DNA from: Ianthella basta
Lineage: Eukaryota; Porifera; Demospongiae; Verongiida; Ianthellidae
DNA: 64,000 bases
Direction: 5' to 3'
Assembly (NCBI GenBank): GCA_964019415.1
Contig: OZ025871.1
Location: 4,804,129-4,868,128 of the forward strand
Below are positions 1,449 to 57,701 of the stretch, in pieces. The notes beneath the pieces were generated by a model that saw only the letters and a list, made by a program, of their open reading frames with translations, had not been told where the DNA came from and did no database searches. How positions within the stretch are numbered: the first letter of the stretch is position 1; every line of letters begins with the position of its first letter. The position numbers were made by a program, and so were the translations under genes.

Positions 1449-1695
1449 ACACTAAGCCCTGAGCTTCTGAGCAAGATGGCTACAGCATTGGCTCAGAACA
1501 AGACATTGAAAGTGCTGGATCTGTCTAGTGTTCAGCAGCGTAGTTTTCTGTTGGGACCACAGGCTAAAGGAGACCTGACTCAGTATATTGCTTTGAAGCA
1601 GTTTATTGAACATCTCATGCTGGGTGTCTCTCCCAACACCACCCTGGAGAGAGTGGAGCTGGACTTTCCCCCCTGGTTGTCAGGTCAAATCAAGT
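1449..1695 (+). CDS. LRR exon j1 (diverged founder-like cassette)
   Basis: An internal exon of an LRR protein. The acceptor is TGTAG before 1449 and the donor is GTGAGT at 1696. The frame enters in phase 0 and leaves in phase 1. It encodes 82 residues including LLSKMATALAQNKTLKVLDL and a second strand around TTLERVELDF, the ribonuclease-inhibitor-type LRR pattern common in NLR receptors. It is homologous to the exons at 20734, 27957 and 33442 but longer by about 12 residues between the two strands. Its splice phase fits the k exon at 14967, which would imply an intron of about 13 kb filled with transposons. The family assignment is good. Whether it belongs to the same transcript as the tandem units is inferred. 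Confidence 0.72.
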
Positions 1696-7853: not shown

Positions 7854-8407
7854 TGGTACTGGTGGTGAAGAGAGGAGGAGGCACATGCAACATTACAGTG
7901 AATGGGATGGAGATAGAAAATATGAAGACAATGAAGTACCTGCCAGCCATCCTGAATAAGGAGGGATCATGTGAAGCAGAGGTAGACCAAAGAATAGGTG
8001 CAGCATCCAAAGTAATTGGAGCCATGAGAAAAGAGGTAATTGATCGAAGAGAACTGAGCAAAGCACTTAGAGTGATGCCAACTCTGTTGTATGCATGTGA
8101 GATCTGGACCCTGCTAGAGAGACACAAGAGCAGAATGCAAGCCCTTGAAATGAGATGTCCGAGGAGAGTGGAAGGAGTTACTATCTTGGACAAAGTGAGG
8201 AATGTGGACATTAGATCAAGATTGGGACAGGTGGCATTGGTATTGAGAGTAGAGAAGAAGAAGACAGAGTGGTTAAGTAACATGGAAGAGATGGCAGAAG
8301 ATAGGATGGTAAAGAAGGTGTTTTTTGGAGAATGTGCCAGGAAAGCGACCGAGGGGAAGACCAGGGATAAGATGGGCTGATGATCTGAAAGTAAAATGGA
8401 ACAGTTA
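7832..8407 (+). pseudogene. LINE RT C-terminal region (frameshifted)
   Basis: This region follows the RT core in another frame. It carries MKYLPAILNKEGSCEAEVDQ, corresponding to the YLG-type motif after the RT palm, and LLYACEIWTLLERHKSRMQA, typical of the region after the thumb. A second shift near 8350 moves the tail to a frame reading RGRPGIRWADDLKVKW, a common LINE terminus, which stops at 8407. Two frameshifts and the missing 5' half make this a pseudogene. Confidence 0.85.
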
Positions 8408-14500: not shown

Positions 14501-14966
14501 GAGTGGTCACTCCTCCAACTGTCTCACTTGCAAAAACTGCCTGCCAATCACTGCAGACAGTGCTCACATACGTATGTATATACCTCAAGCAACAACCCAG
14601 TGTACCCATGGGAACTATGGGTATACCCAATGGCTTTTATTAGAGACTTCCCAAAAGGGAGCAAAGAATCAAAGACAGGCCACATTAATGATTACTTCAA
14701 CTGTTACATGTATGCACACAATTCAGTTACAGCTACATGGAAATTAATTTTTATATGCAAATTGTAATGTATTGTCAGTGAGTGTTGATAACTTCAATTA
14801 TCGAAACATTTTGATTATCCAAACACCCTCCAGTCCCAACATGTTCAGATAAGTGACTTCCTACTGTATTATGAACTGCATTCAGCTGAGCTGTGCAGTC
14901 TGTTGCCATTCATGCATATGGTTGTATGCTGTTTCCAGTTTTGTGTCATATCCATTTCTTCTGTAG

Positions 14967-15097
14967 GTGATAATGCACAAGAATTCAAGGAGAGCATCTC
15001 TTTGAAGCATGTCCCACTTGATGTTCTGTGCAATGTAGTGGGGATCTTTGAACATGTAAAAGAGCTTCAGTGTGTGGACATCACCGATCCATTGGAG
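14967..15097 (+). CDS. Cassette exon k1 (LRR-associated)
   Basis: Acceptor CTGTAG at 14961-14966, donor GTATGT at 15098, length 131 bp exactly as in the three later copies, phase 1 in and phase 0 out. It encodes ISLKHVPLDVLCNVVGIFEH then VKELQCVDITDPLE. Against the tandem copies it keeps HVPLDV, FEHV and the DP dipeptide before the donor. Leu spacing (ISLKHVPLDVL and LQCVDI) looks like irregular LRR strands. It splices in phase onto j-type exons. Its nearest upstream partner is the exon at 1449. Confidence 0.75.
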
Positions 15098-20733: not shown

Positions 20734-20944
20734 AGCCTGAGCCGTGACCTTCTGGACAAGATGGCTACATCACTAGCTCAGAACAAGACAATGACAAAGC
20801 TGGTATTGTGGGGTGGTGGCTTAACATCTAATGAAGATGTCAAGCTATTCACCCACCACCTCCTGTTGGGCCTCAGCAACAACACTGCATTGACAGATTT
20901 GTCACTGGGTCTACCACCACAGTGCTGGGACTGGCCTTGTGATG
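20734..20944 (+). CDS. LRR exon j2 (unit 1)
   Basis: Acceptor CTGCAG before 20734, donor GTGAGT at 20945, 211 bp, phase 0 in and phase 1 out. It encodes 70 residues: SLSRDLLDKMATSLAQNKTM, strand TKLVLWGGGLT, helix VKLFTHHLLLGLSNN, strand TDLSLGLPPQ, ending CWDWPCDG. This is the alternating helix and LxL strand pattern of ribonuclease-inhibitor-type LRRs. The residues within the first strand (V, W, G, G) differ from both other units while flanking residues are conserved. It joins exon k2 in frame across the phase-1 junction (G plus GC gives glycine). Confidence 0.82.
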
Positions 20945-21481: not shown

Positions 21482-21612
21482 GCAATGTGGTGCTGAGGAG
21501 TGTGAAAAGGGTCACCTTATCACATGTCCCACTTGATGTGGTGTGTGGTGTTGTGGATTACTTTGAACATGTGGAAGAACTGAAGTGTGTGAACATCAAG
21601 GACCCACAGCAG
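21482..21612 (+). CDS. Cassette exon k2 (unit 1)
   Basis: Acceptor CTACAG, donor GTACGT at 21613, 131 bp, phase 1 to 0. It encodes VVLRSVKRVTLSHVPLDVVC then DYFEHVEELKCVNIKDPQQ. The VTLSHVPLDVV and ELKCVNI segments look like LRR strands. The phase-0 end allows direct splicing to the next unit's j exon or to 36774. It is intact and close to the copies at 28705 and 34187. Confidence 0.82.
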
Positions 21613-27956: not shown

Positions 27957-28167
27957 AGCCTGAGCCGTGACCTTCTGGACAAGATGGCTACGTCACTAGC
28001 TCAGAACAAGACAATAACAAAGCTGAAATTGTTGAGTGGTGACTTAACACCTAACGAAGATGTCAAGCTATTCACCCACCACCTCCTGTTGGGCCTCAGC
28101 AACAACACTACATTGACAGATTTGACACTGAGTCTACCATCACAGTGCTGGGACTGGCCTTGTGATG
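27957..28167 (+). CDS. LRR exon j3 (unit 2)
   Basis: 211 bp, acceptor CTGCAG, donor GTGAGT at 28168, phase 0 to 1. Same architecture as j2. The first strand reads TKLKLLSGDLTPNED where unit 1 has TKLVLWGGGLTSNED and unit 3 has TKLELWNFGLTPNED. The second strand reads TDLTLSLPSQ. Outside these strands the exon is almost identical to its paralogues. Intact. Confidence 0.82.
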
Positions 28168-28704: not shown

Positions 28705-28835
28705 GCAATGTGGTGCAGAGGAGTGTGGAAAGGGTCACCTTATCACGTGTCCCACTTGATGTGGTGTGTGGTGTTGTGGATTACTTTGAACATGTGGAAG
28801 AACTGAAGTGTGTGAACATCAAGGACCCACAGCAG
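28705..28835 (+). CDS. Cassette exon k3 (unit 2)
   Basis: 131 bp, acceptor TATAG, donor GTACGT at 28836, phase 1 to 0. It encodes VVQRSVERVTLSRVPLDVVC... ending NIKDPQQ. It differs from k2 mainly at the start and at the SH to SR position after VTL. Intact. Confidence 0.82.
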
Positions 28836-34186: not shown

Positions 34187-34317
34187 GCAATGTGGTGCAG
34201 AGGAGTGTGGAAAGGGTCACCTTATGGGATGTCCCACTTGATGTGGTGTGTGGTGGTGTGGATTACTTTGAACATGTGGAAGAGCTGAAGTGTGAGAACA
34301 TCAGGGCCCCACAGCAG
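34187..34317 (+). CDS. Cassette exon k4 (unit 3)
   Basis: 131 bp, acceptor CTACAG, donor GTATGT at 34318, phase 1 to 0. It encodes VERVTLWDVPLDVVCGGVDY then ELKCENIRAPQQ. The two codons after VTL are WD where unit 1 has SH and unit 2 has SR, changing four of six bases. Phase 0 at the end matches the exon at 36774. Confidence 0.82.
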
Positions 34318-37719: not shown

Positions 37720-38430
37720 GTATACTGGCTCCAACAGACTATTGTCAGGTAGTGACTGTGTACATCATGCACCAGTTAACCATCACATTCTACATTCAAT
37801 CCACGCTGCATTGATGGAGGTGGTCAAATGTATTATTTGTGATGACCTAAAGCACTCTGTGTACACTATAGTGATGTGACTCTGACAGGACTTGATGAGC
37901 TGTGTATCAGTGTAGTCCTCTGGCTGTGTCTGACCACATTACATTTCATTCCAACATGTTCAGCTCTAGACATGGTGCGGACTTGGCATGTGTGCTCATC
38001 TGCTTGCATGGTATTGTCTCACAGGTGGCTCTCACTTTAGTTGCGTTTAATGTGCAGTAGTTGACGTAGCTCCAAATGGAAGCCATCACTGAGTAGACCA
38101 TGCACAATAATGTGCGCACACTCATTGCTGTCAGACAGAAGATGGAACAGTCTTGTTTCACACTCCATTCATGCAATGTGACTTCATTGCAGTATGACAT
38201 TGTGTTGTTGTTACTACTAATGTGCCATGTGTGGTGGGAAGTAATATACTTGATATTCTGTCACTCTGTGGCTGTCACACTAAGTTGTTGCTACAACATG
38301 GCTCATTTGTCTGTGCAGTGACAGTGACATCTAACACACATTCTGAACTTTTCACTTTGTGTACACATTTGATATACGTATAGCTTAATAAGTTGTTGTG
38401 TTCTGTACTGTTTACTGTTCACTCCTGCAG

Positions 38431-38647
38431 CCATCAGTACCACAAACGCTTGTACACAAGTTTGGAGTGGCAGCTGTGAGAGGAGTTGTCAGGAACAAGA
38501 ACATTACAGAGTTCCAACTGGAGCCTTGTACCCACAACCAACAGGTAGTGGATGGTATACTAGCACAACTCACAGCAGATGAGAGGAGGAAGTTGGAAGT
38601 TGGACGAGATCTGTTTGGGTGTCCCTCCATTGAGCTCTGTCCAGTTG
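38431..38647 (+). CDS. LRR-type exon, gene A copy
   Basis: 217 bp, acceptor CTGCAG, donor GTGAGT at 38648, phase 0 to 1. It encodes LVHKFGVAAVRGVVRNKNIT, strand EFQLEPCTHNQQVV, then LTADERRKLEVGRDLFGCPS and ELCPVG. RNKNITEFQLE parallels QNKTMTKLVL of the j exons, so it is another LRR-type module. Residues CTHN, LE and LFGC are replaced in the copy at 45483 although neighbouring sequence is nearly unchanged. Confidence 0.8.
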
Positions 38648-39282
38648 GTGAGTGGTGCATAGTCAGTCTCCTCATGCAGTGTCTGTGCTGTGTCTGTCAA
38701 GTCCTCAGTCAGTTGTATCAGAGAAGCAGCACCTCATTCCCCAGCTGGCTGTGCTGGGTTGGGTGGGGCTAGCTCTCTCTTGTGTGTGAACCCTGTATCA
38801 CCTGTAGGTGGTGAAGTGAGCTTCTTGCTTGACTGCCTTGAACTGCAGTGCTGTCATTACTACATGAGTGGGCATGTGTAGCTCCCAATGTACATGTATC
38901 AGGACCTACATTGCTGCCTGAATGCTGTAGTGCAGTCAGTTGAGGTGTAGTAGAGTGCAGATATGCTACTAGATATCTACTAGATATGGTGGTATTGTCC
39001 TAACACTTGAGCACTAATTTATGGATCCAATAAGAGATTTATCCCTCGTGTGTGTAAGGTATGTAAGTACATTACTGTGTGTGGTTAGACTTTGGAATAC
39101 ATTCCCATTGTGTGCAAGGAGATATCCTTATTCATCCCAGTCACTCAAGCACACCACCTTCCCCTCTTGCCCTGTGTGTCTGTCTGTTCACATGCTGTGG
39201 TGTTTGGTCACCTCCTGTAGAGTGAGCCTCATGTAGTGAGATGTCCACTTTCTCTGTCCTTGTCTGTTTCACTCACACACAG

Positions 39283-39368
39283 GTGACACCTCATCAGGTG
39301 ATGCTCCTCACTCAACAGGTTCCCAGCCAGCTGATGAGGACACAGCGATGGAGCTGGACAGGACTGAG
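39283..39368 (+). CDS. Linker exon, gene A copy
   Basis: 86 bp, acceptor ACACAG, donor GTCAGT at 39369, phase 1 to 0. It encodes GDTSSGDAPHSTGSQPADED then TAMELDRTE, a hydrophilic, probably disordered linker. The copy at 46339 is almost identical. Confidence 0.72.
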
Positions 39369-40490
39369 GTCAGTGACATTTCAGAGAGCAGTCTACATTG
39401 TACCATTTCCAACACAATGCCACAGTTGTCCAGTAGAGCCTGCCCTGTCCTTTGCCCTCCTTGTCCTGTCCTGCATGGTGTCTGCAATGTGACTGTTTAC
39501 CTGTACATTGTCTAACTTGTCCTGTGAGTCCTTATACTGGACAGACTGGGACATACTCAGGACATCACTCATACATACATACACTTTAATCAGTTGCTAA
39601 CTAGTTGAGCTGCAATTCTCAGTTCTCAGTTATTATTCATCAGCTACTGTACCTTTGTTTATGGTTCATACTTTAGCACCAGTTGTCACTGGTTATGTAA
39701 TGCCAGCCCTCACATGATCCTTCACATGGCAAGTAGACTAACAAGATGGACAAAGAGATTGGTACTCTCTCAAACTCTTTTGTTAGTGATTTTACGTGTG
39801 TACTATGTTTTGTTTCATGAGATACTGCACATGTATAGTGATCACTGATCTTCCCAATGATTGGACCCATTCCCATTCCAACTGTTCACTGACCAGTTGT
39901 CAGGTTTACTGCCAGTTATTACAGTACCAGTTACCAGTTATGGTCCACTGAGTTCACAGCTCTACATACTGTTTGTCTTCATTGGATGTGGACATCCTCT
40001 GTGTGTCCCCTCGCAAGCACGTCCACCCTAGTTCTAGCTGTCTCTGTCTGTCTAGACATTACTAAGACACGTGGTACTCTATGCATGGACTCTACTGGAT
40101 CCCTTGGATTGGTCAGGTGCTCTTTGACAAGTGCAGGCAGTCATTTGGAACACCATTGCCGCTGTCTCAGTGTCTCAGTGCCTCCACATTGTGCAATAAT
40201 GCCTATTTTGTCTCTGCCGTGCTACTCCTAACATAATCCCTTTCACTGCTAAACCACCTGCCTGCTGGTGCAGTCTGCACAGGTCACTAGTCAAGGCAAA
40301 TAGGAGTGTTGTGTGGTTCTTGTCAATGTGTGCCACTCCATTGTATTAGCAGTGGTGTTGAGTGATAAGGTGCTGCAGTGACATCTGCAGACAACATGTT
40401 TGTGTTGATGTTGTGTGCTGAAGGGTGGATACACCTATAGCCTCAGTGAGCATGCAGTGTTGCCTCCCTCCCCACCTCACATCACTACAG

Positions 40491-40602
40491 GACTCCTCTG
40501 TGAGACAGACCCCCTGCCAGTCAGTGAGGAGCCAAGTGGGAGCCTTCCCCACTGGAGCTGCAGTGGGAGGTGATGGGGGAGCAGTGGACACACCCACACA
40601 AG
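40491..40602 (+). CDS. Linker exon, gene A copy
   Basis: 112 bp, acceptor CTACAG, donor GTACAG at 40603, phase 0 to 1. It encodes DSSVRQTPCQSVRSQVGAFP then a glycine-rich end GGDGGAVDTPTQ. Paralogue at 50500. Phase 0 in matches the phase-0 end of 39283. Confidence 0.72.
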
Positions 40603-41817
40603 GTACAGTAGAGAGTGGGTGGACATGTGTGTTGAGACTTGGGTGCAGCGAGTGATTGATCGTTTTCATTAGCAGTATTCCAACTATTTGGCTTTGTTTT
40701 CACTGCTGATCCGCTTCCCTCATAATATGTATATAATCTGAGTTCACTGCCTACTAGTGAGTGATATGCTTTGTTTGATAATTTAACCCGACTGGAAGCC
40801 TACTGTCACATAGTCTGTGTGGAGGGAGTAGTTCATCCTATTCCATAGCTATGGTAAATAGCTCCTCTAAAAGATGCTAACTGAACCTTTTAACTAATTG
40901 TTCCGGTATGGTCAGGATTGCCTGTGCAATGATGGCAGCAAACCACTATTGTACTGGCAGTTTTGCTAGGAGTGATGCCATGCAAGGTAGTTATACTATG
41001 ATGTATTGGACATCACTTTATACGTATATGGATGGCCACCTACTCCATAAATATTAGATAATGTCAGTCTTAAGCTCTGTACCCTTGGCCAGTACAACCA
41101 GCAACCTACTGGAGAGACAACTACTTGTCTTCACTGTAGTTATCAATGTAGCTAATGAGATACAACCTCTGTTGACAGTAGTGCCCAGAAAAGGGTGCAC
41201 AGTGGCTTCACTTTGCCTGGAGACAGGTGCCCCAGCGGTCCTGTATCTGGTTTCTAGTGGGTTTCCCATTCTTCATTTCCTATGTTACAAGCTGTTTTCA
41301 GGATGGCAGACATCAGTGAAAGTGTTCACAGTGCCACTGCCAACCTAGCTCACTTAGGCACTGTGTTTGTGCACAGACAGACATTGTTAGCTATGCACAT
41401 ATTTTAATGTCATCTCAAATGGTTATTCTACAAATTTACTAAGCAGCGTCACTATAGTACATATGTACAAATTTACTAAGCAGCAAGTGTCACTATAGTG
41501 CCTCGATCCCTTCAGTGGTACAATCCACACTCAGGCACTCAGGCTAACAGTTGGATCTAGAGCCAAGAACTGCTAGACATGTTTATGTTGAGCTACACCT
41601 TGCTCACTGGTGTGTATTATATTTTCAGTCTATCCATTGCTACACTAGTACATACATAGATGTCTGCACTGCACTGTACATACCTAGTATATGTTGTATA
41701 CGTAAATACAGTATGTTTTTGTTTGGTTCGTCATTACACAAGTTCTTATAGTATATGACTGCATTATAATTATGCTAATTGATTGATATACTATTTTACT
41801 CGATGCATTGTTTACAG

Positions 41818-41870
41818 GTTACCCATTCAGAGTGGATGACTGGGACAACATGGAAGACGAAATTGGCAAG
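41818..41870 (+). CDS. Short acidic exon, gene A
   Basis: 53 bp, acceptor TTACAG, donor GTCACT at 41871, phase 1 to 0. It encodes YPFRVDDWDNMEDEIGK. I chose this donor because it joins in frame to the terminal exon at 42222; reading on in this frame would stop within 30 codons. Another frame is open to 42006 (ending ICDIVEIAIDYH), so an alternative terminal exon is possible. Confidence 0.5.
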
Positions 41871-42221
41871 GTCACTTTTGAAACAAATGAGAGACACCTT
41901 ACTCAGTGTGGAATATATTCTATCACTCTGTGGAGAGGGAGAGGTCTCCAGCAGTTTTGATGATGTCATATGTGACATAGTTGAAATAGCCATTGATTAT
42001 CACTAGGGACAGCTGTCTGTGTTTGAACTACATGGAGGGCTGACCACACAGAACATTACTGTAGTGATGTGTGATTACATAATCCCCTTCATTAATACAA
42101 TTGCAAGACCTAGCTAGACTGAAGTCTACTAGTGCAGTATTCCAGATTTGATCACGCTTTTGCATGATGACTTGTCATGATTACTGCAATATTCTTCTGT
42201 CCTCCTATCTCTTATATACAG

Positions 42222-42512
42222 TACAACCCTTCCTTGCTCAGTCAAGGATTATTTTCTCCTGAGGAGCTTTTCAGCATGGGCATGCCTCTGCTTGCAGGAG
42301 ACGAATCTCTTTCTGCACTTCCTCCAGATTGTTTCATCCCCAGTCAATCCCTTCCTTCTCCTAGTGAAGTAGGCTCCGCTCTGTCTGATGATGTCCCTGG
42401 TCCCTCAGGACTGTCTATCATACCCCAACTCAACACCAACACTGGAAAGAGCGGGAAAAGACCTGCTGATCACAAGGCTGCCAACAGCAGTCCAGCCAAG
42501 CGACAACAATGA
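42222..42512 (+). CDS. C-terminal exon, gene A
   Basis: Acceptor TATACAG, phase 0, TGA at 42510-42512. It encodes 96 residues. The start is acidic/hydrophobic (GLFSPEELFSMGMPLLAGDE), then serine/proline-rich, then DDVPGPSGLS. It ends with basic clusters SGKRPADHK and SPAKRQQ that resemble a bipartite nuclear localisation signal. The DVPGPSGL motif and the KR tail recur in the terminal exon of the second cassette (53985). Immediately after the stop, a strong donor (GTGAGT at 42523) lies in phase 1. Confidence 0.65.
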   Translation, partial: YNPSLLSQGLFSPEELFSMGMPLLAGDESLSALPPDCFIPSQSLPSPSEVGSALSDDVPGPSGLSIIPQLNTNTGKSGKRPADHKAANSSPAKRQQ

Positions 42513-42840
42513 GACACCACAGGTGAGTCTGTTTGGGAGGGAGCATTCAGAGCCAGACTGCCTTGTAGGCAAACAGTTCTAGCAGCTGTTCTCTTCCCAT
42601 GTACATAGGCCAACCCTTGCCTGCATCACTGTGGTCACTATTGGAATGGCAGGGTAGAGTAGTGCACACATTGTTAGCCAGACATGAACAATGAGCTGTG
42701 CACTGTGCTGTGGACTCCTGTACATGTGTTGGCCTAGACTGTGGGTATTGCTTGCTTTGGCCATGGTTGCACAATTGGCTGTAGGATTTCTATGATGGCC
42801 GCAGTATGCACGCACTATGATTGTACATTATGTACTGCGC

Positions 42841-43032
42841 ACACATGACACTGTCACCATTGACCCAACACATGACAATGTCACCATTGGCCCAACACAT
42901 GACACTGTCACCATTGACCCAACACATGGCACTGTCACCATTGACCCAACACATGACAATGTCACCATTGACCCAACACATGGCACTGTCACCATTGACC
43001 CAACACATGGCACTGTCACCATTGACCCAACA
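42841..43032. repeat. 27-bp minisatellite (about 7 units)
   Basis: Units of the form CATGACACTGTCACCATTGA plus CCCAACA, alternating GACA and GGCA variants. The unit is divisible by three and open in several frames on both strands, giving 9-residue repeats such as HDTVTIDPT. Located in a likely 3' intron of gene A. Not supported as coding. Confidence 0.9.
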
Positions 43033-43102
43033 CACACTCTCTGTTTGGCTGTGTTTACGTTGTATCTTACTGTACATCCCTCACATTACCTTCTCCTGTT
43101 AG

Positions 43103-43229
43103 GTGGTCCTGTGACTGGTGGTATCCAACAGGTCAGTGTGTGTGGTGTTACCCTAGACGTACTCTATGACATGCTACTTGTATTCTTGTGGAGCAGTTGG
43201 TGTGTCTGGATGTCAAGTATCCACAAGAA
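43103..43229 (+). pseudogene. k-like exon with 4-bp deletion
   Basis: Acceptor TGTTAG, donor GTAAGT at 43230. It is 127 bp against 131 bp in functional k exons. The first part reads GPVTGGIQQVSVCGVTLDVL like VTLSHVPLDVV. The second part, in a shifted frame, reads VEQLVCLDVKYPQE like VEELKCVNIKDPQQ. The length difference equals the frameshift, so it is a broken k exon, located downstream of the gene A stop codon. Confidence 0.7.
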
Positions 43230-43417
43230 GTAAGTTAGGCCACTGTCAGCTACAGCTGCTGTCACCGAGTATCACCGACATGTATACCCATAGCCTCACT
43301 GTGTGTCTCATGAAGCCATTAATTATTCTTTCATTTGTTCTTGCGTCTAGAAACTGTATGTTGTCAAGTTTGTGCACTAGTTTGCATGGCTCTTTGAAGT
43401 GTGGTACTGTGGGTACC

Positions 43418-43636
<219 letters not shown>

Positions 43637-43712
43637 ATGTGTTCAAGTGTACGCATTTTGTTTAAGTTGGTGTCTTTCATTCATTTGCTGACCTCTCACC
43701 TTCTTTGTACAG

Positions 43713-43781
43713 TCCACTGGTAATGCAGCTCAAACCATCATGGATCACAAGACCTGGGCTGCCTCAGTGCAGGAGAGCTAA
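43713..43781 (+). CDS. Possible alternative 3' exon, gene A
   Basis: Acceptor GTACAG, phase 0, encoding STGNAAQTIMDHKTWAASVQ and ES then TAA. The phase fits a k-type exon. The same sequence context after a TG array exists at 58115, where the frame is not conserved, so this may be only 3' UTR. Confidence 0.35.
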   Translation, partial: STGNAAQTIMDHKTWAASVQES

Positions 43782-44160
43782 TGACATGATTGCCAAGGAT
43801 AATTTCTTACCTGTTACTAGACTTAGCTGCACCAAAGTTTGCAATACTCCATGTTGAGATTTTATTGTATCATTTTTTGCAGTTGTTTGCATGACTTTTA
43901 GGGAAATGTGTGATTTCTGTGACAAAGTGACACTAGTACTAGTAATGTTTCCTTGTATTAGCTATAATGTGGTAATTGTACACTACATCTTGCAGTGTGT
44001 AGAATGGCTAGTGTGTAGGTGTAAGTGAGTGAGCATTGCATTGCATGTGCCACTTTCCTGCAAGCCAATAGCTGTAGGGACATCATACACCACATCTGTG
44101 CTGTGTGGCACTGTTTTTTGTAGGTTGTGAATGGTGAATTTTGGAACAGTAAATAAGTAT
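43782..44160 (+). other. Probable 3' UTR or downstream sequence, paralogous to 58140-58640
   Basis: Aligned by eye with 58140-58640 over most of its length. It contains the empty site (about 44060-44070) for the MITE inserted at 58436. No clear AATAAA. Confidence 0.5.
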
Positions 44161-44163
44161 TAG

Positions 44164-44262
44164 TTATAATACCTCCTTGAGGGATGTCGCTGATTTATAA
44201 GCACGAGGCCCGAGGGGGAAGTGCTTATAAATCAGCGACATCCCGAAAAAGAGGTGTTATAA
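44164..44262. repeat. Long perfect hairpin
   Basis: Arms of 24 bp, GGGATGTCGCTGATTTATAA plus GCAC at 44181-44204 and its exact complement at 44221-44244, separated by 16 bases. Outer arms TTATAATACCTCC and GAGGTGTTATAA extend it. It is followed by two imperfect copies of a GGGAGCG(T/C)GGGCGAAT block (44283, 44335). It interrupts the A copy relative to the B copy, so it is probably a MITE or foldback remnant. Confidence 0.7.
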
Positions 44263-44369
44263 GTGATTTATTTGCCGAACAAAGGGAGCGTGGGCGAATG
44301 TTAATTGGTTTCTTGCCAAATAAGGAAAGCATTAGGGAGCGCGGGCGAATCCAATGCATTTTCATTCTT

Positions 44370-44690
44370 TAGAACTAGCTAGCGAGGAGCCAAGCGAGTC
44401 AGGCAGAAACGTCGGTACGCTACACCTCCAGAAACCTCTTCCTCTACGGAGGAGACTTCTTGCCCCGCTCCTGCAATGCGATCGAAGGCGCCAACATGAC
44501 TGGTGAATCGTGGTCGGCGGAAGGTGCGCCCGACAGTATTGGAGGCGGAGGGAGCCAAGCTGGCTCAGAGGAATCTGACGGCGGGACAGCACGATGGATC
44601 GGTGATCAGCTGCGTCGGAACTGACCGTGATCTGAGACTCTGTGTTCGTTCGGTAGCTAGCTAGCTAGCTACGTACTTGAGATGTCTTTC
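44370..44690. other. CpG-rich unidentified segment
   Basis: High GC and CpG relative to surroundings. Plus-strand reading gives AKRVRQKRRYATPPETSSST then, after a stop and shift, VNRGRRKVRPTVLEAEGAKL. This looks like damaged coding sequence of unknown type, perhaps from the same insertion as the hairpin upstream. Confidence 0.3.
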
Positions 44691-45482
44691 CGACCGGGTC
44701 CTCTCGTGCGGAAGAATCGGCCACCATCGACGCACAAATTTCGTCGAATCGACAGCTATAGTACGGTAGAACGGCATCAGTTTGCTCAGTGCTTCCAATA
44801 GGATGAAGCTTAAGCTTTTTGCACCCTTTTCCATGACTGAAACTACAGTGGCACCATAGATACTCAAAACCCAACCATATTGTATGCTTCATTGAACTGT
44901 TCTTGTGTTTTGATCTGAATGCAAGCACAAGTCAAATGTATTATTTGAGATTACCTATAGCACTCTGTGTACACTATAGTGTGTGACTCTGACAGGACTT
45001 GATGAGCTGTGTATCAGTGTAGTCCTCTGGCTGTGTCTGACCACATTACATTTCATTCCAACATGTTCAGCTCTAGACATGGTGTGGACTTGGCATGTGT
45101 GCTCATCTGCTTGCATGGTATTGTCTCACAGGTGGCTCTCACTTTAGTTGCATTTAATGTAGTTGACGAAGCTCCAAGTTGAAGCAAAACGTCACACTCG
45201 TTAAGTGCTGTCTGAAACAGCCTTGTTAACTAGCCCATTCATGCAATGTGACTTCATTGCAGTATGACACTGTGGTATTGTATTGTTACTACTGATATTA
45301 ATATATGCACTTGATATTCTGCCACTCTGTGGGTCTCCCACTAAGTTGTTGCGGCAACGTTTGTTTGTGCAGTGACAGTGACATTTAGCACACATTCCAA
45401 CCATTTGTCACCATTTGTGTATAAATTCACTGTACACAATTATGTTTCTGTATTATGTACTGTTTACTGTTCACTCCTGCAG

Positions 45483-45702
45483 TCATCATCAAAACCACAA
45501 ACACTTGTACACAGGTTTGGAGTGGCAGCTGTGAGAGGAGTTGTCAGGAACAAGAACATTACAGAGTTCCAACTGGAGCCTTTTATCAAAGACCAACAGG
45601 TAGTGGATGGTATACTAGCACAACTCACAGCAGATGAGAGGAGGAAGTTCAAAGTTGGACGAGATGAATATAGATGGCCCTCCATTGAGCTCTGTCCAGT
45701 TG
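45483..45702 (+). CDS. LRR-type exon, gene B copy
   Basis: 220 bp, acceptor CTGCAG, donor GTGAGT at 45703, phase 0 to 1. Paralogue of 38431 with one extra codon at the start (SSSKPQ against PSVPQ). The strand reads EFQLEPFIKDQQVV and the later segment RRKFKVGRDEYRWPS. Every difference inside the two variable patches changes the amino acid. Frame and splice sites are intact. Confidence 0.8.
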
Positions 45703-46338
45703 GTGAGTGGTGCATAGTCAGTCTCCTCATGCAGTGTCTGTGCTGTGTCTGTCAAGTCCTCAGTCAGTTGTATCAGAGAAGCAGCACCTCATTCCCCAGC
45801 TGGCTGTGCTGGGTTGGGTGGGGCTAGCTCTCTCTTGTGTGTGAACCGTGTATCACCTGTAGGTGGTGAAGTGAGCTTCTTGCCTGACTGCCTTGAACTG
45901 CAGTGCTGTCATTACTACATGAGTGGGCATGTGTAGCACCCAATGTACATGTATCAGGACCTACATTGCTGCCTGAATGCTGTAGTGCAGTCAGTTGAGG
46001 TGTAGTAGAGTGCAGATATGCTACTAGATATCTACTAGATATGGTGGTATTGTCCTAACACTTGAGCACTAGTTTATGGATCCAAATAAGAGATTTATCC
46101 CTCGTGTGTGTAAGGCATGTAAGTACATTACTGTGTGTGGTTAGACTTTGGAATACATTCCCATTGTGTGCAAGGAGATCTCCTTATTCATCTCAGTCAC
46201 TCAAGCACACCACCTTCCCCTCTTGCCCTGTGTGTCTGTCTGTTCACATGCTGTGGTGTTTGGTCACCTCCTGTAGAGTGAGCCTCATGTAGTGAGATGT
46301 CCACTTTCTCTGTCCTTGTCTGTTTCACTCACACACAG

Positions 46339-46424
46339 GTGACACCTCATCAGGTGATGCTCCTCACTCAACAGGTTCCCAGCCAACTAATGAGGACACA
46401 GTGATGGAGCTGGACAGGACTGAG
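46339..46424 (+). CDS. Linker exon, gene B copy
   Basis: 86 bp, acceptor ACACAG, donor GTCAGT at 46425, phase 1 to 0. Same sequence as 39283 apart from PAD to PTN and A to V changes. Serine/threonine-rich, acidic at the end. Confidence 0.72.
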
Positions 46425-47084
46425 GTCAGTGACATTTCAGAGAGCAGTCTACATTGTACCATTTCCAACACAATGCCACAGTTGTCCAGTAGAGCCTGCC
46501 CTGTCCTTTGCCCTCCTTGTCCTGTCCTGCATGGTGTCTGCAATGTGACTGTTTACCTGTACATTGTCTAACTTGTCCTGTGAGTCCCTATACTGGACAG
46601 ACTGGGACATACTCAGGACATCACTCATACATACATACACTTTAATCAGTTGCTAACTAGTTGAGCTGCAACTCTCAGTTCTCAGTTATTATTCATCAGC
46701 TACTGTACCTTTGTTTATGGTTCATACTTTAGCACCAGTTGTCACTGGTTATGTAATGCCAGCCCTCACATGATCCTTCACATGGCAAGTAGGCTAACAA
46801 GATGGACAAAGAGATTGGTACTCTCTCAAACTCTTTTGTTAGTGATTTTACGTGTGTACTATGTTTTGTTTCATGAGATACTGCACATGTATAGTGATCA
46901 CTGATCTTCCCAGTGATTGGACCCATTCCCATTCCAACTGTTCACTGACCAGTTGTCAGGTTTACTGCCAGTTATTACAGTACCAGTTACCAGTTATGGT
47001 CCACTGAGTTCACAGCTCTACATACTGTTTGTCTCCATTGGATGTGGACATCCTCTGTGTGTCCCCTCGCAAGAACGTCCAGCC

Positions 47085-48336
47085 ATAGTTCATGTTAACA
47101 TTTACTTAAGTTCAAAGTTGTAACTAAACCTCCCCTCCCCAACACAGTCTACTCCTGATTAACCACTTGTAACCAGGCTGTCGTTAATTTGTTGGCTCAG
47201 CCTTCTGAATATTAGGACAGCCTGTGTGCTCTTGCTATTTTCCTGATAGAGTCTGAGGAAGTCTGAAAACAAACAGTAGTTAACATGGAGGAAGTTCAGC
47301 TGTTCACACTTAACAATTGGATCACAGTAGCCCGGCACCTTATAGCAATTGTTACTGACAGCAATCACTCAATGTCAAGCTGACCTTCCTCCCTTATATG
47401 GGTTGCATTAGCTAATAGTGTCCCACACTGTCCTTTGGTAGACTGAGGCATCAAAATGACAGTGGGCCTACATTAGACTGTTGTCTGTTTCTGTTATAGG
47501 AAGAACAACAAAGCTTTCCACTCGTGTACTTTCATAATGTATGAACTAATCATTATGCACCCTGACGTGGAGTGACATTGTGTTGTATATGTCCTACTGT
47601 TAGTGTACCAAACCACTCTCTTCACAAACCTAGACCCACCAAGAATCCTATCTGGACTAGCAAATACCATACTGTTTGCCTGTACACCATCTAATGTGTT
47701 CTGTGTGTTCTGCAAGACGTCTCTAGCTCACACACCCTGTCTGTTAGTGTCTGTGCCCTTTTCGGTCATTTGTGAGTGCTAAATTTTGAACAGTACAATG
47801 CCTGCCAATGTGGTCTAATTGTTATAATGTTGATTGCATGTCCAATGACATTCAGAGGCACCCTGTTTGAACGTGTTGTTAGTTACATAATTATTTGCTC
47901 AGTTCAGTGGAAGAGATGTAGCACTCCTTCAATTTGTAGTCCCACGGAGCACAACACTACGGACAGCCACCAGACTTCTTCTGTGAACTTTCCAAGACTT
48001 TCCTAACCTTCGGAGCAAGCATTCTACCAACTGTGCCATGTCTCCAGCCGACATCCTCCAATTATGGGAGTAGCAACAAGTGCACGCTCAGCCAGCAGTT
48101 TTGCCATTGTAGGCACAACGAAAGGTGATGCCATTCTCTCCATGCGCCCATCTCCATATGGTGGACTTCTGTTTGGCGCGGATGTGAAAAAGCTGGTGGT
48201 CAGCTTTTGCTCTTTGATACAGATGTGGAAAAGCTGACGCTGACTGGCTCACTATTTAAATGAGCGTAATTCAGTCATAACTGAGTCACACTAATGGTTT
48301 TTGACTCACAAGCTGTGTACAATTAGGCCTGTGACT
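47085..48336. other. Copy-B-specific sequence with a tRNA-like A box
   Basis: No homologous sequence in copy A. On the minus strand, TGGCACAGTTGG (48027-48038) is an exact match to the tRNA A-box consensus and is followed by GTAGAATGC, as in a D arm. No good B box follows, so this is at most the head of a tRNA-derived SINE. Nothing else was recognised. Confidence 0.35.
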
Positions 48337-48730
48337 GTTTACTTGCATTAAATAGGTTGGGAAGGCCATGGACTATAGCTGAGGCCACCATTTTAATGAT
48401 CTTTGCAGATATCATGTCTGGACCAGTAGCTTTCCTCTCATTAAGGGTAGACTATTGCTTAAGTACTGTTTCCTCATTAACCTCAGATAGCCTGAAAGTG
48501 ATGGGAACTGTGGTTAGTGACTGTTGCATGTCTGCAGCAGGTGGAAATGGGAGTTTGCTGAAGTGTTCTAGGAAACAGTCCACAATTTCTTGTGGCCTAG
48601 TTAGTGTCATTCCTTCATGTGTCAGGGACGGAGTGAGCTTTGGTTTGCCTCTGCCAAGAGCAGAGTTTAGCTGTCTCCAGACTTTCTCTGGATGATATGA
48701 CATACCTTTGCACACTGCTGCATAATGCAC
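48337..48730 (-). pseudogene. LINE linker and first RT motif
   Basis: KVWRQLNSALGRGKPKLTPS and EIVDCFLEHFSKLPFPPA are the usual linker between endonuclease and RT. After a TAG the frame resumes STLNERKATGPDMISAKIIK. No further RT motif follows. Confidence 0.75.
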
Positions 48731-48781
48731 AGCCTTTGCTTTTCACATTCAACGATTTACTTCTCTCTTTAGGTGATTAAA

Positions 48782-49357
48782 TTAATCCCAGTCCTCTTTT
48801 GCATTGCTGCTCCAGTGTTTCCTCCTAAAGTAGTTCCTAGATCTCATCAGTTGTCTGATTTGGGCATCAATCCAATCATCATTCCTACCCTTTCTTCTCC
48901 TAACCTTAACCAAAGGAGTATGCTTATTCACAATGTCAAGAAAGAGGGATGTCCAATAGTTCCACTCGTCATCCATATGGTCATAGATGTCAAGCACATG
49001 CCAGGGGACTGCCCACAAATCAGTCATAAGCTCATCAGGGGTGCATCTTTTGTAGCATCTCACCACACTTGTACTCTCAGGTGCTGACCATTCTCCAAAG
49101 ATCATTTGGTAATCGCTATTGGTTATAGCAGGTGTACCTGTGGTAGTGAACATCTCTGGATGTGTAGTGAATAGTAAGTCAATAAGTGTACTAGAGAGAT
49201 CTGCTACTTGAGTGGGTTCGGTAATTAGCTGGAAAAGATTATAATTCTCAGTGACTGACAACAGTTCGTTTAGCTGGTGTGATGGTGCCAGCATATTACA
49301 GTTCAGGTCCCCCATCAGTACAATTTCCTTCTTTTCGGCTGTATATAGCCCTGTCAA
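48782..49357 (-). pseudogene. LINE endonuclease C-terminal part
   Basis: This frame includes IVLMGDLNCNML, the GDxN catalytic motif of APE-type endonucleases. It continues with LIDLLFTTHPEM and ITNSDYQMIFGEW, the region of the SDH motif with histidine replaced by tyrosine. A linker with RRKGRNDDWIDAQIRQLMRS follows, typical of CR1/Jockey-group elements. The altered SDH motif and the upstream frameshifts argue against activity. Confidence 0.85.
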
Positions 49358-49611
49358 GATTGCAGCCTAGATTGTTTGTGGCATTCACATCGGCATGAGG
49401 TGTGACTGTTACCCAGGAGAACTGTTCTTCTGTTCATGTGCAATTCAAGCCAGATCATCTCTAATCCAGCCTCTATGAGGTCAAGTCTTCTTCTGCTTCA
49501 GCATCTATCAGGAACACAGATAAGTACACCACCTTCTCTCCTGTCACAATCTTTTCTATGCATATGATAGGTAGGGATGCTGATCTCATGGTCTGGGACA
49601 GTACAATTCAG

Positions 49612-50067
49612 TCATGTTTCACTTAGCCCAAGTATGACAGGTCTTTTGGCATTCTCCGTCAGCATCTTTACTTCGTCTATCTTTGGCAGGAGGCTCTGAA
49701 TGTTTAGATAGCACAAAAGGGGTGTGGCTGTGGACTCCTCCAGGGAAGACTTGCCCGAGTCTAGAAGGGTGTCAGTTAGTTCCAAACAGGAGATGTTCAG
49801 GTCACTCTCATTCCTCAGTAAGGGAAGCTCTGCCATGAGGTAGCCTGGACACAACCACTGATCATCCACACAGTCACTCAAGATCGGATACTCGGAGTGA
49901 GATACTCCACAGCATTTTGCAAGTGTCCACTTGGAGCACTTGGAGCACAAAATGGCGCGTTGGTTCTTTCTAACAGAATTGCTGCACACAGTACGCGGGT
50001 ACGCCACTGGGCCAGGATTCACTTCAACGTCTCTTGACATGGCCAAGATCATTATTATTATCATCAA
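49612..50067 (-). pseudogene. LINE ORF with 2A-like StopGo motif, PHD-like finger and endonuclease start
   Basis: A 151-codon frame starting with a hydrophobic run then SRDVEVNPGP at residues 11-20 (about 50038-50008). This fits the D(V/I)ExNPGP consensus of 2A ribosome-skipping peptides. Next comes a cysteine-rich block with AILCSKCSKWTLAKCCGVS and WLCPGY, a PHD-type finger of CR1-like LINEs with the last cysteine replaced by tyrosine. The frame ends with CYLNIQSLLPKIDEV and LGLSET, the first strands of the APE-type endonuclease. A TGA then interrupts the frame where WL would follow. 2A peptides are known in APE-type LINEs of several invertebrates. Activity of this copy is not established. 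Confidence 0.82.
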
Positions 50068-50499
50068 GTCACCTTTTCAGGGCTTGGAGCTACTTCTTAG
50101 ACGAGTTTTCCAGTCAGTCCTCCGAACAGATCGAGGTGGCAGAATCTGTCTTTGGCTAACAGTAAGCACGTTCAGCATTACGAATGTACTAGGCTTAAAT
50201 TCTGTCGCAAACAGAATATCAGTTTCTCCATACTTACTTTGTCTGTCTGGGTGATCATCACAGCACAGTTAATTTGTGGTAAAATAACGAAAAGAATCAC
50301 CGCAAGCCATGCGATCCACCACATAGCTGCCATTTCATTGATATATACGTACCAATGTCCAATACCAATACCAATAAGGTGCTGCAGTGACATCTGCAGA
50401 CAACATGTTTGTGTTGATGTTGTGTGCTGAAGGGTGGATACACCTATAGCCTCAGTGAGCATGCAGTGTTGCCTCCCTCCCCACCTCACATCACTACAG

Positions 50500-50611
50500 G
50501 ACTCCTCTGTGAGACAGACCCCCTGCCAGTCAGTGAGGAGCCAAGTGGGAACCTTCTCCACTGGAGCTGCAGTGGGAGGTGATGGGGGAGCAGTGGACCC
50601 TCCCACACAAG
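50500..50611 (+). CDS. Linker exon, gene B copy
   Basis: 112 bp, acceptor CTACAG, donor GTACTG at 50612, phase 0 to 1. Same as 40491 except GAFPT to GTFST and a T to P change near the end. The flanking homology with copy A begins at about 50374, directly after the LINE junction and an ATACCA repeat. Confidence 0.72.
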
Positions 50612-50873
50612 GTACTGAACAATGTTGAGATTTGAAACTAAATTTCAACTGCAAAAAATGTAATTATACTATCCACATCCATTCCTGTAGAGTGACAGAC
50701 CTCATGCACACTACATGTTCACACTACAACAGACACCTCCCTTTGAGTGTGACACTTGCTACACTGTGTTCCTGTTATTAGTGTGCCATTAGTTACTTGA
50801 TATGGTTTGCACCATACTCTATGGGTTAGCTGCTCCTGTATGTACATGCATCCTGTGTGTCTGCCCTGTGCAG

Positions 50874-51032
50874 CAGAGGCACACCCATGGCAATTGCCAC
50901 AACTGACACTCCCGAATGGACCACACCCACTCACAGTACAGGAGTGCAATTTCCCTCCACCTGCTGCTACCCCACAAGTCAGGGGGCTTTCCCCATCTGT
51001 GAAGGGACATCCCCCAGGAGGCATGCAATATG
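50874..51032 (+). CDS. Proline-rich exon 1, gene B
   Basis: 159 bp, acceptor TGTGCAG, donor GTACAC at 51033, phase 1 to 1. It encodes AEAHPWQLPQLTLPNGPHPL then FPPPAATPQVRGL and HPPGGMQY. Low-complexity, probably disordered. There is no equivalent in gene A. Confidence 0.6.
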
Positions 51033-51123
51033 GTACACTGTACAGTGTGTGTGCATGTGGTCCATGTGTGTAGGGTGTAGTCTGCTAGGTTACTGACTGT
51101 CCTCTCCTTCACTACTCACTCAG

Positions 51124-51240
51124 GTCCTCCTCCACAAAGAAGGGGTCCATTCCCTCACCCCCAGGCCTTTGCTCAAAGACCGATGTTCACTGACCCTTCT
51201 GTTATAGGGTATCCACCACACATTGCCAGACAGTATCAAG
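51124..51240 (+). CDS. Proline-rich repeat exon 2, gene B
   Basis: 117 bp, acceptor CACTCAG, donor GTGTGT at 51241, phase 1 to 1. It encodes GPPPQRRGPFPHPQAFAQRP then MFTDPSVIGYPPHIARQYQ. One of four homologous repeats of about 39 residues in this gene. Confidence 0.68.
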
Positions 51241-51520
51241 GTGTGTATGCGTGAACATGCAGGTGGTTTGGTGTGTGGTTTGAGAGAGTAATTTATATGT
51301 GTCTTTGTGTGCATTCACTGTCCATAGCAGTAGTGTTCGAGTTATTCATGGCATGTGTATACTGTAGTAATGTGAGAGTGCACTGCATTCTACACTTGGT
51401 ACAGACACTGTAGTGTTTGTTGTGTGCTGTGCATTGTGAGTTGGCATGGTGAGTGCCAACTGCAAGTTCTTTCCAACTAGTGTGTTCACTGAATTGCATG
51501 TCACTGTCTTCCCATCTCAG

Positions 51521-51616
51521 TCCCCCCTCCAATGAGCTGTAGACAGACTCCCTTCCCTCGACCACATGATTCAATACAGACATTCCCTAACTCATCTGGT
51601 GTGGGACAACTCCAAG
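51521..51616 (+). CDS. Proline-rich repeat exon 3 (short), gene B
   Basis: 96 bp, acceptor TCTCAG, donor GTACTG at 51617, phase 1 to 1. It encodes VPPPMSCRQTPFPRPHDSIQ then TFPNSSGVGQLQ, a shortened version of the repeat in exons 51124, 52057 and 53021. Confidence 0.62.
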
Positions 51617-51780
51617 GTACTGTAGTGGTGGATGTGTAGTATTATAGTGGTTAGTGTAGTGTAGTGGGTGTGGTTGGTGTGGTTGTGTATGGGTGCAGGT
51701 GTAAAAGTGTGCGATTGCTTGGTTGTTTCAATATGATGTCCAACTATCTTTTCAATTCTACATCTTAGCATTTTTCCCAG

Positions 51781-51822
51781 TCCAATTGTACCTCACAGTT
51801 GGACCTGTTCATACTCCTTATG
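51781..51822 (+). CDS. Possible micro-exon, gene B
   Basis: 42 bp, acceptor CCCAG, donor GTAGTA at 51823, phase 1 to 1, encoding QLYLTVGPVHTPY. The phase matches both neighbours, but the short length and weak donor make it uncertain. Confidence 0.35.
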
Positions 51823-52056
51823 GTAGTAGTAATTACATTCACAGTCCTCAAGGCTGGCCACCGTCAAACCGAGGTGAGGTGTGCTGTCAGTGGGAACCTT
51901 GAAGTGAAATTTGTGCTAAGTCTGTTTCCACATACACTGTATGAACTGAGTTCAGTAGTTGTTGTGTGTTGTCTGAGTAGATTATTGATTTTGTGCATGT
52001 CTTCCTGACTGCATGGAGTGCTCACTGATGTCCTCCTCTCTTTCTTCCTCACTCAG

Positions 52057-52173
52057 TTCCCCCTCTTCCGAGATGGTCTCCGCTCCCTCACCCACAGCCA
52101 TTTGCTCCAAGACAGATGGTCACTGACCCGTTTGCTACAGGGTACCATCAACACAGTGTGGGCCAGCGACAAG
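52057..52173 (+). CDS. Proline-rich repeat exon 4, gene B
   Basis: 117 bp, acceptor CACTCAG, donor GTGAGC at 52174, phase 1 to 1. It encodes VPPLPRWSPLPHPQPFAPRQ then MVTDPFATGYHQHSVGQRQ. Very similar to 53021, including the intron sequence before the acceptor, so it is a recent exon duplication. Confidence 0.7.
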
Positions 52174-52196
52174 GTGAGCATGTAATGTGCAGTGTG

Positions 52197-52197
<1 letters not shown>

Positions 52198-52287
<90 letters not shown>

Positions 52288-52297
52288 TGTGTGTGTT
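52198..52297. repeat. (TG)n microsatellite
   Basis: About 100 bp of TG repeat with two TATG interruptions, within the intron after exon 52057. Confidence 0.92.
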
Positions 52298-52731
52298 CTC
52301 TCCATTGACTGTAGGCTAGGTGTGTGTTTCCACTGAAGCATGTTATGCTACAGCATGTGGCCTATCCGCTGCCAACTCTACTATACTATCACTCGGCATG
52401 CACTAACCAGTACTTACGTACAATACCTGTTTTCAAGTGTACTCTTCAAAGGTATGTACGCTACTATTGCTAAAGCACATCAAAATGGGGAGAGTGTTTC
52501 TGGTTGTTCTAAAACCAAATACATGGTTCAATCATTGTCAGCTGACATAAAGTACAAGGCAGCATTCTGGGTACTCCAGCTCCTTTAAGAGACTCCACTG
52601 GTCCCCAGTGAACATGCCTTATATACACACTGTGACATAAGGCTGAGAATTGGTGTGAATAGTTAGTTTCTCAGCAGTGTAGTTCACATAATTCATTGCA
52701 GGTTGCCTCTTCTTTTCCATTTGCTGTCTAG

Positions 52732-52896
52732 GGGCCAGGAATCTCACCTCTTATGGCTTCCCAGATCTCTCAAGGAGTGCCATTGCCCCTCCCCCTCCTG
52801 CCCCGCCCATTGCTGTTGAGGCAGCCCTCACTCCACCTCATCATCCTTATGGACCAGACCAAATTTCATGGAGGAGACCTGCTGGACCACTGACCG
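52732..52896 (+). CDS. Proline-rich exon 5, gene B
   Basis: 165 bp, acceptor GTCTAG, donor GTGAGC at 52897, phase 1 to 1. It encodes GARNLTSYGFPDLSRSAIAP then PPPAPPIAVEAALTPPHHPY and SWRRPAGPLT. Proline-rich stretches could bind SH3 or WW domains; that is inference. Confidence 0.62.
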
Positions 52897-53020
52897 GTGA
52901 GCACTGCATGCAGTATTTGGTATTTGGTATGTGTTGTCAAAGCAGGGTTATGATTTGTCCATTTCTTCCTGACTGCATGGATCGCTTACTGATGTTCATT
53001 TCTCGTTTCTCCTCACTCAG

Positions 53021-53137
53021 TTCCCCCTCCACTGAGATGTGCTCCCCTCCCTCAACCACAGCCCTGTGCTCCAAGACAGATGTACACTGACCCGTCTGCT
53101 ACAGGGTACCACCCACACAGTGTGGGACAACACCAAG
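53021..53137 (+). CDS. Proline-rich repeat exon 6, gene B
   Basis: 117 bp, acceptor CACTCAG, donor GTAAGT at 53138, phase 1 to 1. It encodes VPPPLRCAPLPQPQPCAPRQ then MYTDPSATGYHPHSVGQHQ. Closest to exon 52057. Confidence 0.7.
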
Positions 53138-53170
53138 GTAAGTTTGTGATATGTGATGTGCAGTGTGTGG

Positions 53171-53205
53171 GTACATGTGTGTCTGTGTGTGTGTGTGTGT
53201 GTGTG
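53171..53205. repeat. Short (TG)n tract
   Basis: TG repeats with a TCTG interruption, directly after the donor of exon 53021. Confidence 0.8.
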
Positions 53206-53261
53206 TAGAGGGGTCATATAAGTTGCATATGTTGTATGGGACATGGTAAAGTACTATCATA

Positions 53262-53437
53262 CAGTGAAACCTGGCTAAGACAGCCACCTGTGGGCCAGTT
53301 CTGACTGACCTGTATAGAGAGGTGCCTGCTCTACAGAGGTAGATAACAATGTTTTAGTGCTATTTGTGACCAGGGAGGCTGGCCGCTTTAGAGAGGTGAC
53401 TGCCTAACTCAGTCACCATCTTAGACAGGTTCCACTG
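53262..53437. mobile_element. Mariner-like MITE, copy 2
   Basis: 176 bp with inverted ends CAGTGAAACCTGGCTAAGA and TCTTAGACAGGTTCCACTG, flanked by TA on both sides. Closely related to 37372-37546. TA duplication and a CAGT terminus fit Tc1/mariner-derived MITEs. Confidence 0.82.
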
Positions 53438-53984
53438 TATTACTGCTCTGAGAAAGCTTGAATTTGTGCATCATGCATTATACATCAATGCAGTTTCCAT
53501 TCTGAATTGCACACCATGTGCTGTCTTGGTGACTGTCAGTCTGTAGCATAGAGATTGAGATGTATGTACGTATAAAGTAGACACACATTCGGTTGAGGTG
53601 TCTTCCATCGTGGTGTTAGTTTGATAAGCACATAGAATGCACTTTATTTATCATGGTATGTACTTACCTACCACTACAGTGAACTGGTGTTAAGCTATGT
53701 GTGTAGGTGGGAGCCCTGTTCAGTTGGCTGTGTTGTACTGTGTGAGACAGCCTACATGTCCAAAACACTGTATAGTGTGTGCTTTGTGGATGACTCTTCA
53801 TACGAGTGCACCACGAGACTGTAGCCCTCTGATATATGCTTTATAGTATCAATGGTGGCTAAAGATCTGAATACTGCACTGCATGGCTTCTGTTCCTGTA
53901 CATGAGCAAGTGACAAGATTGTCTTGTTAGCATTGTCTGTCAATCTCCCCATGCATATTCCATCTCATGTTACTATCTCTGCAG

Positions 53985-54166
53985 TGACTGTCCCTTCAAC
54001 TGCTGATGTACCAGGACCCTCAGGCTTGACATATGCTTCCAGCATGGTCTCTGGTGACTACAGAACACTTGGGAAGAGACAAGACAACCCAAATGTTGCA
54101 GAAAGCACTGCAGTAAAGCGACATGAAGGTGTCAGTCCTGACAGAGGGCATCCACACCGACATTGA
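53985..54166 (+). CDS. C-terminal exon, gene B
   Basis: Acceptor CTGCAG, phase 1, stop TGA at 54164-54166. It encodes VTVPSTADVPGPSGLTYASS then LGKRQDNPNVAESTAVKRHE and a histidine-rich end. ADVPGPSGL and the spaced KR pairs match the end of the gene A C-terminal exon (42222). An internal donor (GTGTCA after GAAG at 54128) and another directly after the stop (GTGAGC at 54169) are alternatives. Confidence 0.65.
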
Positions 54167-57565: not shown

Positions 57566-57701
57566 TACCATTTTAGCATTGTTGTGTTTGTAGTACAGTT
57601 TGGTCTTGCATATTTTGAAGTGATATTAAAATTGTGTGCGTGCACATGTAATCATGGCGTTAGTACATGTGCAATTGTATATTATGTGTGTCTGGTAGCA
57701 C

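Follow-up and report, generated by a model that had tools for sequence, protein, structure and literature searches.

We analysed 64,000 nucleotides of the genome of the sponge Ianthella basta (NCBI GenBank assembly GCA_964019415.1, contig OZ025871.1, positions 4,804,129 to 4,868,128 of the forward strand; hereafter the window), which contain two similar copies, W1 and W2, of a leucine-rich repeat (LRR) exon that we call exon D. The two copies belong to a same-strand array whose members share a nearly invariant framework and differ in short patches, which are reassorted among copies and change far in excess of their surroundings. We consider, with a probability of roughly 0.78, that these data are best explained by exchange of short blocks among paralogues combined with selection that favours diverse contact loops in an array of NLR-type genes.

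Exon D and its array

The exon D pair comprises the following features.

38431..38647, + strand: exon D copy 1 (W1), LRR-type, phase 0 in and phase 1 out, with patches CTHN and LFGC
38527..38538, + strand: hypervariable patch 1 of W1 (C T H N), directly past the predicted strand EFQLEP
38611..38622, + strand: hypervariable patch 2 of W1 (L F G C), directly past a predicted strand
45483..45702, + strand: exon D copy 2 (W2), with patches FIKD and EYRW

Both exons have consensus splice sites at the coordinates (38431-38647 and 45483-45702) that an earlier note on this DNA had proposed, and the peptide differences it had read between them, CTHN against FIKD and LE..LFGC against FK..EYRW, were found again. 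The same is true of the clustering of changes: of 18 differences in 213 codon bases, 12 fall inside two 12-base blocks, although the blocks hold 5 (CTHN/FIKD) and 7 (LFGC/EYRW) differences rather than the 6 and 8 counted earlier. The naive hypergeometric probability of 12 out of 18 differences lying within 24 of 213 bases is 3e-9, for blocks that were picked after looking. The introns had been described as almost identical, which is true downstream, where 7 of 635 aligned bases differ (1.1%), but not upstream, where the alignment contains many gaps and 78 of 548 aligned bases differ (14%), chiefly within the final ~400 bp ahead of exon D. In the intron adjoining the 5' side of the exon (window 38073-38430), W1 and W2 are far more diverged than in the downstream intron.

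The proposed scope, a recent duplication of two exons, turned out to be too small, as there are about 60 genes and not one duplicated pair. Exon D has 72 protein matches in the 209-Mb genome (all 145 candidates scored), 62 of them strong (E-value 9e-22 or better); the 10 weaker ones (E 5e-4 to 1e-3) were excluded from all counts. All strong copies except one occupy the + strand of contig C4, from 3.99 to 8.34 Mb, a span of 4.35 Mb, with a median spacing of 67 kb between neighbours among these 61. The 62nd is located on a 58-kb contig (C51) and has codons identical to those of the copy at 4.67 Mb; it is probably an alternative haplotype of that copy. Every one of the 62 is open, without a stop, and together they represent 56 distinct coding sequences, including six identical pairs; the codons of W2 are identical to those of a copy (L010) 2.6 Mb away. 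Another close pair resembling W1 and W2 is found at C4:7.48 Mb.

The alignment of the 62 copies shows a framework that hardly varies. The most variable columns are 32-34 and 64-73, accompanied by in-frame insertions and deletions, and the exon's first two codons vary too. Entropy across the codons of patch 1 is 2.7, 1.6, 3.0 and then 1.1 bits, and in patch 2, which varies in length in frame, columns range from 1.5 to 3.3 bits with gaps counted as a state. The two-patch pattern thus holds family-wide, except for the LE/FK pair, which is near fixed (F in 60 and K in 59 of the 62 copies). When W1, W2 and the copy identical to W2 were left out, the ten columns singled out by the note still stood above the rest (59 copies, Mann-Whitney p 2e-4), with low entropy (0.12 and 0.21 bits) at the LE/FK columns. 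Sliding divergence from W1 of 21 other copies (20 loci and W2) points the same way. It reaches 0.20 in the two 30-bp bins covering the patches, and in the downstream intron most values lie at 0.00-0.05. Elevated values, the highest 0.21, also occur in portions of the upstream intron and in a small number of other short segments. Divergence is therefore not uniform over exon and introns but peaks at the patches. An assembly error at the patches is unlikely because all 62 copies are open, length changes are in frame and the W2 codons recur in L010. In an AlphaFold model of exon D (two-sequence alignment, mean predicted local distance difference test score, pLDDT, 72), the chain runs strand-loop-helix-strand-loop-strand; patch 1 is predicted to be the loop behind one strand and patch 2 to lie between two strands.

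Block exchange, selection and their alternatives

How patch diversity arises can be approached through copies that are otherwise close. Six exon D pairs show no framework difference over up to 156 nt, and their patches diverge by 0.29 on average; the average is 0.51 in the most distant pairs. Patches are identical in one of the six and in 4 of the 21 pairs with one framework difference. For 18 pairs with a background divergence of at most 1%, 108 of 528 patch bases differ versus 62 of 8741 background bases, a 29-fold excess. Within a matched set of eight pairs with at most one framework difference, four differ at 5-7 patch codons and the other four have identical patches. Since close pairs split in this manner, patch change comes in jumps, not steadily. 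Copies L026 and L032, for example, are identical in frameworks 1-3 and patch 1, with two differences in the N-arm and two in 330 bp of intron, while patch 2 differs at 9 bases and by a 3-base insertion. Between L045 and L054, 21 patch-2 positions differ (gap columns counted) along with 3 framework differences.

Patches are also reassorted. Exact patch alleles recur with different partner patches; the patch-2 peptide GQDKLGW, for instance, is paired with four different patch-1 types, and the 62 copies contain 30 patch-1 types, 43 patch-2 types and 50 combinations. The divergence of patch 1 correlates with that of patch 2 at rho 0.12 and with that of the 3' intron at 0.08, and the correlations with the framework are 0.27 (patch 1) and 0.39 (patch 2). 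Chromosomal distance showed no significant positive relation to the divergence of either patch.

Two further LRR exons of the same units, A and C, follow the same design as exon D, with variable codons sitting directly past predicted LRR strands. The exon A search, with 150 of 295 candidates scored, gave 117 strong array matches among those scored; 40 of these were hand-picked and combined with three copies from the window. Exon C was recovered from 37 of the resulting 43 exon A stretches, and six stretches had no match. All exons A (43/43) and all recovered exons C (37/37) are open. At zero framework difference, patch divergence in exon C is 0.39 (2 pairs), as in D; in exon A it is 0.03 (3 pairs), rising to 0.30 at two to three differences, a pattern that fits point change better.

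Taken together, we propose that the frameworks and the examined introns stay near-identical across the array, whereas the short hypervariable loops behind LRR strands, probably facing the solvent and touching ligand, would be kept diverse by the exchange of short blocks between paralogues, with ectopic gene conversion as the presumed copying step. Point changes, in-frame insertions and deletions, and selection for amino-acid diversity would contribute as well. Patches swapped into frameworks and frameworks homogenised around preserved patches look alike in these data.

Selection was addressed by a site-wise codon model on trees built from the exons themselves. Because recombination makes such trees unreliable, the resulting omega figures are supporting, not decisive. 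The note had put forward two possibilities of the kind seen in recognition receptors, diversifying selection and localised sequence replacement, and both are supported; pooled omega backs selection in the patches of exons A and C but not in those of D. Several observations weigh against our combined explanation. Pooled omega in the D patches is 1.26 (p 0.22), which is not significant, and the silent rate there is 5.8 times that of the framework (2.3-2.4-fold in the A and C patches). Pairwise ratios of non-synonymous to synonymous differences (pN/pS) in the D patches are about 1 (1.10 and 0.96; 0.57 in the framework). At p 0.05, uncorrected, single patch sites are positive at 1 of 10 in D, 2 of 9 in A and 2 of 6 in C, alongside a few positive sites elsewhere in the exons; among the D patch sites, one is negative. 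The four matched close pairs with identical patches belong here too, as does the fact that patches partly track background descent (patch 2 against the 3' intron, rho 0.39).

Among the alternatives, diversifying selection alone, that is, repeated point mutation at contact codons without block exchange, seems unlikely to us, even though part of the evidence agrees with it. Omega is above 1 in the patches of exon A (2.88, p 3e-5) and exon C (3.39, p 3e-4), against framework values of 0.70 and 0.81 (1.07 in D). Some alleles are one residue apart, such as GRGT[H/F/L/V]YGR, and 88 of the 93 steps of the codon network in D patches are single-base; the low exon A divergence at zero framework difference also suits it. 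Nonetheless, raised omega as the whole story was rejected, since silent change rises too, most in D. Moreover, the matched set includes four D pairs whose frameworks do not differ; one of them also has identical patches, and the other three each show changes in 5-7 of 10 patch codons, many of them by 2-3 bases. Exact patch alleles are also shared by copies with different partners.

It may be argued instead that mutation is locally raised, or that a dedicated germline or somatic process diversifies the patches, with little selection. Such an explanation would account for the sharp patch borders, for omega near 1 in D and for third-position transitions, mostly silent, being 2.7 to 3.7 times commoner in patches than in frameworks. 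We regard it as quite improbable, because non-synonymous changes are in excess in A and C, alleles shared between copies point to copying more than to random mutation, and frames are open in all copies read. A related and more speculative idea, equally doubtful in our estimate, is that a dedicated and targeted process, germline or somatic, swaps contact-loop blocks of some 9-30 bases between same-strand NLR genes, to which A-C cassettes, beginning and finishing in phase 0, could add combinatorial splicing. If true, an animal without antibodies would renew receptor specificity block by block. An assembly or haplotype artefact, or decay of duplicates, might draw on the C51 copy and the six identical pairs, but it is very improbable given open D, A and recovered C exons throughout and changes that concentrate at codons past strands in several exon types.

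NLR-like genes and known receptor systems

We read the units carrying exon D as probable NLR genes, because of LRR profile matches and one weakly matching NTPase frame in each of 31 intervals between D exons. A PDB search with a profile of 28 exon A sequences gave 7 matches at E up to 1 (best 8e-6), all LRR-containing by name or by recall, and it is through these matches that the C-terminal LRR feature of the units is recognised. NB-ARC searches, in which 144 of 232 candidates were scored, yielded 31 STAND-NTPase frames on the + strand of the array. Of these, 27 measure 554-586 amino acids (aa), and the remaining four, one of which contains a stop, measure 128-506 aa, so that the STAND NTPase domain of NLRs is present with weak profile scores. 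Each of the 31 lies in a different D-to-D interval, at a median of 23 kb upstream of the next D, and none of 10000 uniform random placements reproduced this arrangement; hits outside the array were excluded from the count. The candidate NTPase frame of the gene in the window has an NB-ARC E of 0.023 and lies at C4:4761350, 42.8 kb upstream of the window. Four Death hits with 160-aa frames also occur in the array (150 of 437 candidates scored), not tied to particular genes. Exon D would then be one LRR exon of an NLR-type receptor gene, of which about 60 would stand on one strand in the 4.35-Mb array, with a tentative gene model, putatively joined across exons, of (Death?)-STAND NTPase-(A-C)n-X-D-E-F-variable C-terminus.

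This assignment has evidence on the other side as well. The NTPase matches are weak, five array frames having E below 1e-3 and the other 26 values of 0.002 to 0.52, and NACHT was not found in the array among 102 scored of 469 candidates. Pfam searches gave no LRR for single exons or for the joined model (one of 28 A exons reached LRR_6 at E 0.26), and the single-exon D model found no Foldseek match at E below 0.001. For exon A, the predicted structure is of low confidence (mean pLDDT 62). The 580-aa joined model had no match at E up to 0.01 in a protein collection among 7995 candidates scored. Outside the array, C2 1.1-3.9 Mb and C4 8.4-12.3 Mb carry NTPase frames as well as A-like exons of related sequence, predominantly on the - strand, and look like sister NLR clusters.

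The variable lymphocyte receptors of jawless vertebrates are assembled in somatic cells from LRR cassettes with hypervariable residues. The array resembles them in having such cassettes, but differs in its fixed NTPase frame, present once per unit in 31 units. A parallel is offered by plant highly variable NLRs (hvNLRs), of which entropy of 1.5 bits or more at LRR residues is the mark (PMC8226289). Exons D, A and C have 8, 7 and 6 such columns, respectively, here among paralogues of one animal genome and not among alleles, with introns as a near-invariant background. In zebrafish, the NLR-B30.2 family comprises nearly 400 genes, most in one chromosomal region, and was shaped by gene conversion and positive selection, the selection acting on B30.2 and not on the LRRs (PMC4852459); in the sponge array, by contrast, the LRR loops are the variable part. 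Death/CARD-NACHT-LRR architectures exist in large numbers in the sponge Dysidea avara, a likeness to the array; the main text of that report contains no mention of tandem, positive selection, hypervariab- or gene conversion (PMC12909245).

The kind of system is already known, from highly variable plant NLRs and from gene-converted, clustered zebrafish NLRs. What is new here is the sharpness of the patches, their recurrence behind several LRR strands and the same-strand array, which we conclude to be a likely, and unusually sharp, animal analogue of highly variable plant NLRs. No description of this array was recognised from titles and abstract starts, a coverage outside which most subscription papers fall. 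As far as sequence can tell, the pattern suggests an immune function and an inherited recognition repertoire that is kept diverse. Candidate ligand-contact residues can be read from one genome, with near-identical frameworks and introns as a built-in control, and the loops to swap in binding tests are named. It also becomes testable how an animal presumably without adaptive immunity diversifies receptors while homogenising the rest.

Other exons and features of the window

20734..20944, + strand: LRR exon A1, phase 0 in and 1 out, hypervariable past TKL.L and LTDLSL
21482..21612, + strand: LRR exon C1, phase 1 in and 0 out, hypervariable past VTL and ELKC
27957..28167, + strand: LRR exon A2
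28705..28835, + strand: LRR exon C2
33442..33652, + strand: LRR exon A3
34187..34317, + strand: LRR exon C3
36774..36866, + strand: LRR-like putative exon X (31 codons, phase 0-0), proposed on the basis of frame and splice signals
39283..39368, + strand: exon E1, acidic linker
40491..40602, + strand: exon F1, linker
42222..42512, + strand: terminal exon H1
46339..46424, + strand: exon E2, second 3' cassette
50500..50611, + strand: exon F2, second 3' cassette
1449..1676, + strand: diverged A-like LRR exon A0, 3' end not fixed
14960..15097, + strand: diverged C-like LRR exon C0, 5' end not fixed

Variation in exon X (the copy of the W1 unit aligned with 15 other loci) is seen in its three final codons, which adjoin the splice donor and, as in A and C, come right behind a predicted LRR strand. 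Exon E was rejected as an additional hypervariable site, as the peak at 39330-39360 is mostly due to W1, an outlier of the family. A candidate exon G after F was dropped, its frame containing a stop in all three other copies found. Exon H, found at only 6 places in the genome, has a motif in H1 that we take to be bipartite and nuclear-localisation-like.

Beyond the end of the first gene, a second 3' cassette (window 45483-54127) contains D2, E2, F2 and a diverged stretch resembling a terminal exon; within the window, no A or C exons lie between W2 and the 3' exons of the first copy. Frames at 7125-8380 and 48452-50076 bear a putative likeness to non-LTR retrotransposon proteins, and a 25-bp tandem repeat of about 61 copies (94% matches) occupies 56051-57567. 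A 27-bp tandem repeat is located in the 3' region of the first gene (42841-43034); some paralogues match it at many shifted registers, which suggests that they carry more units.

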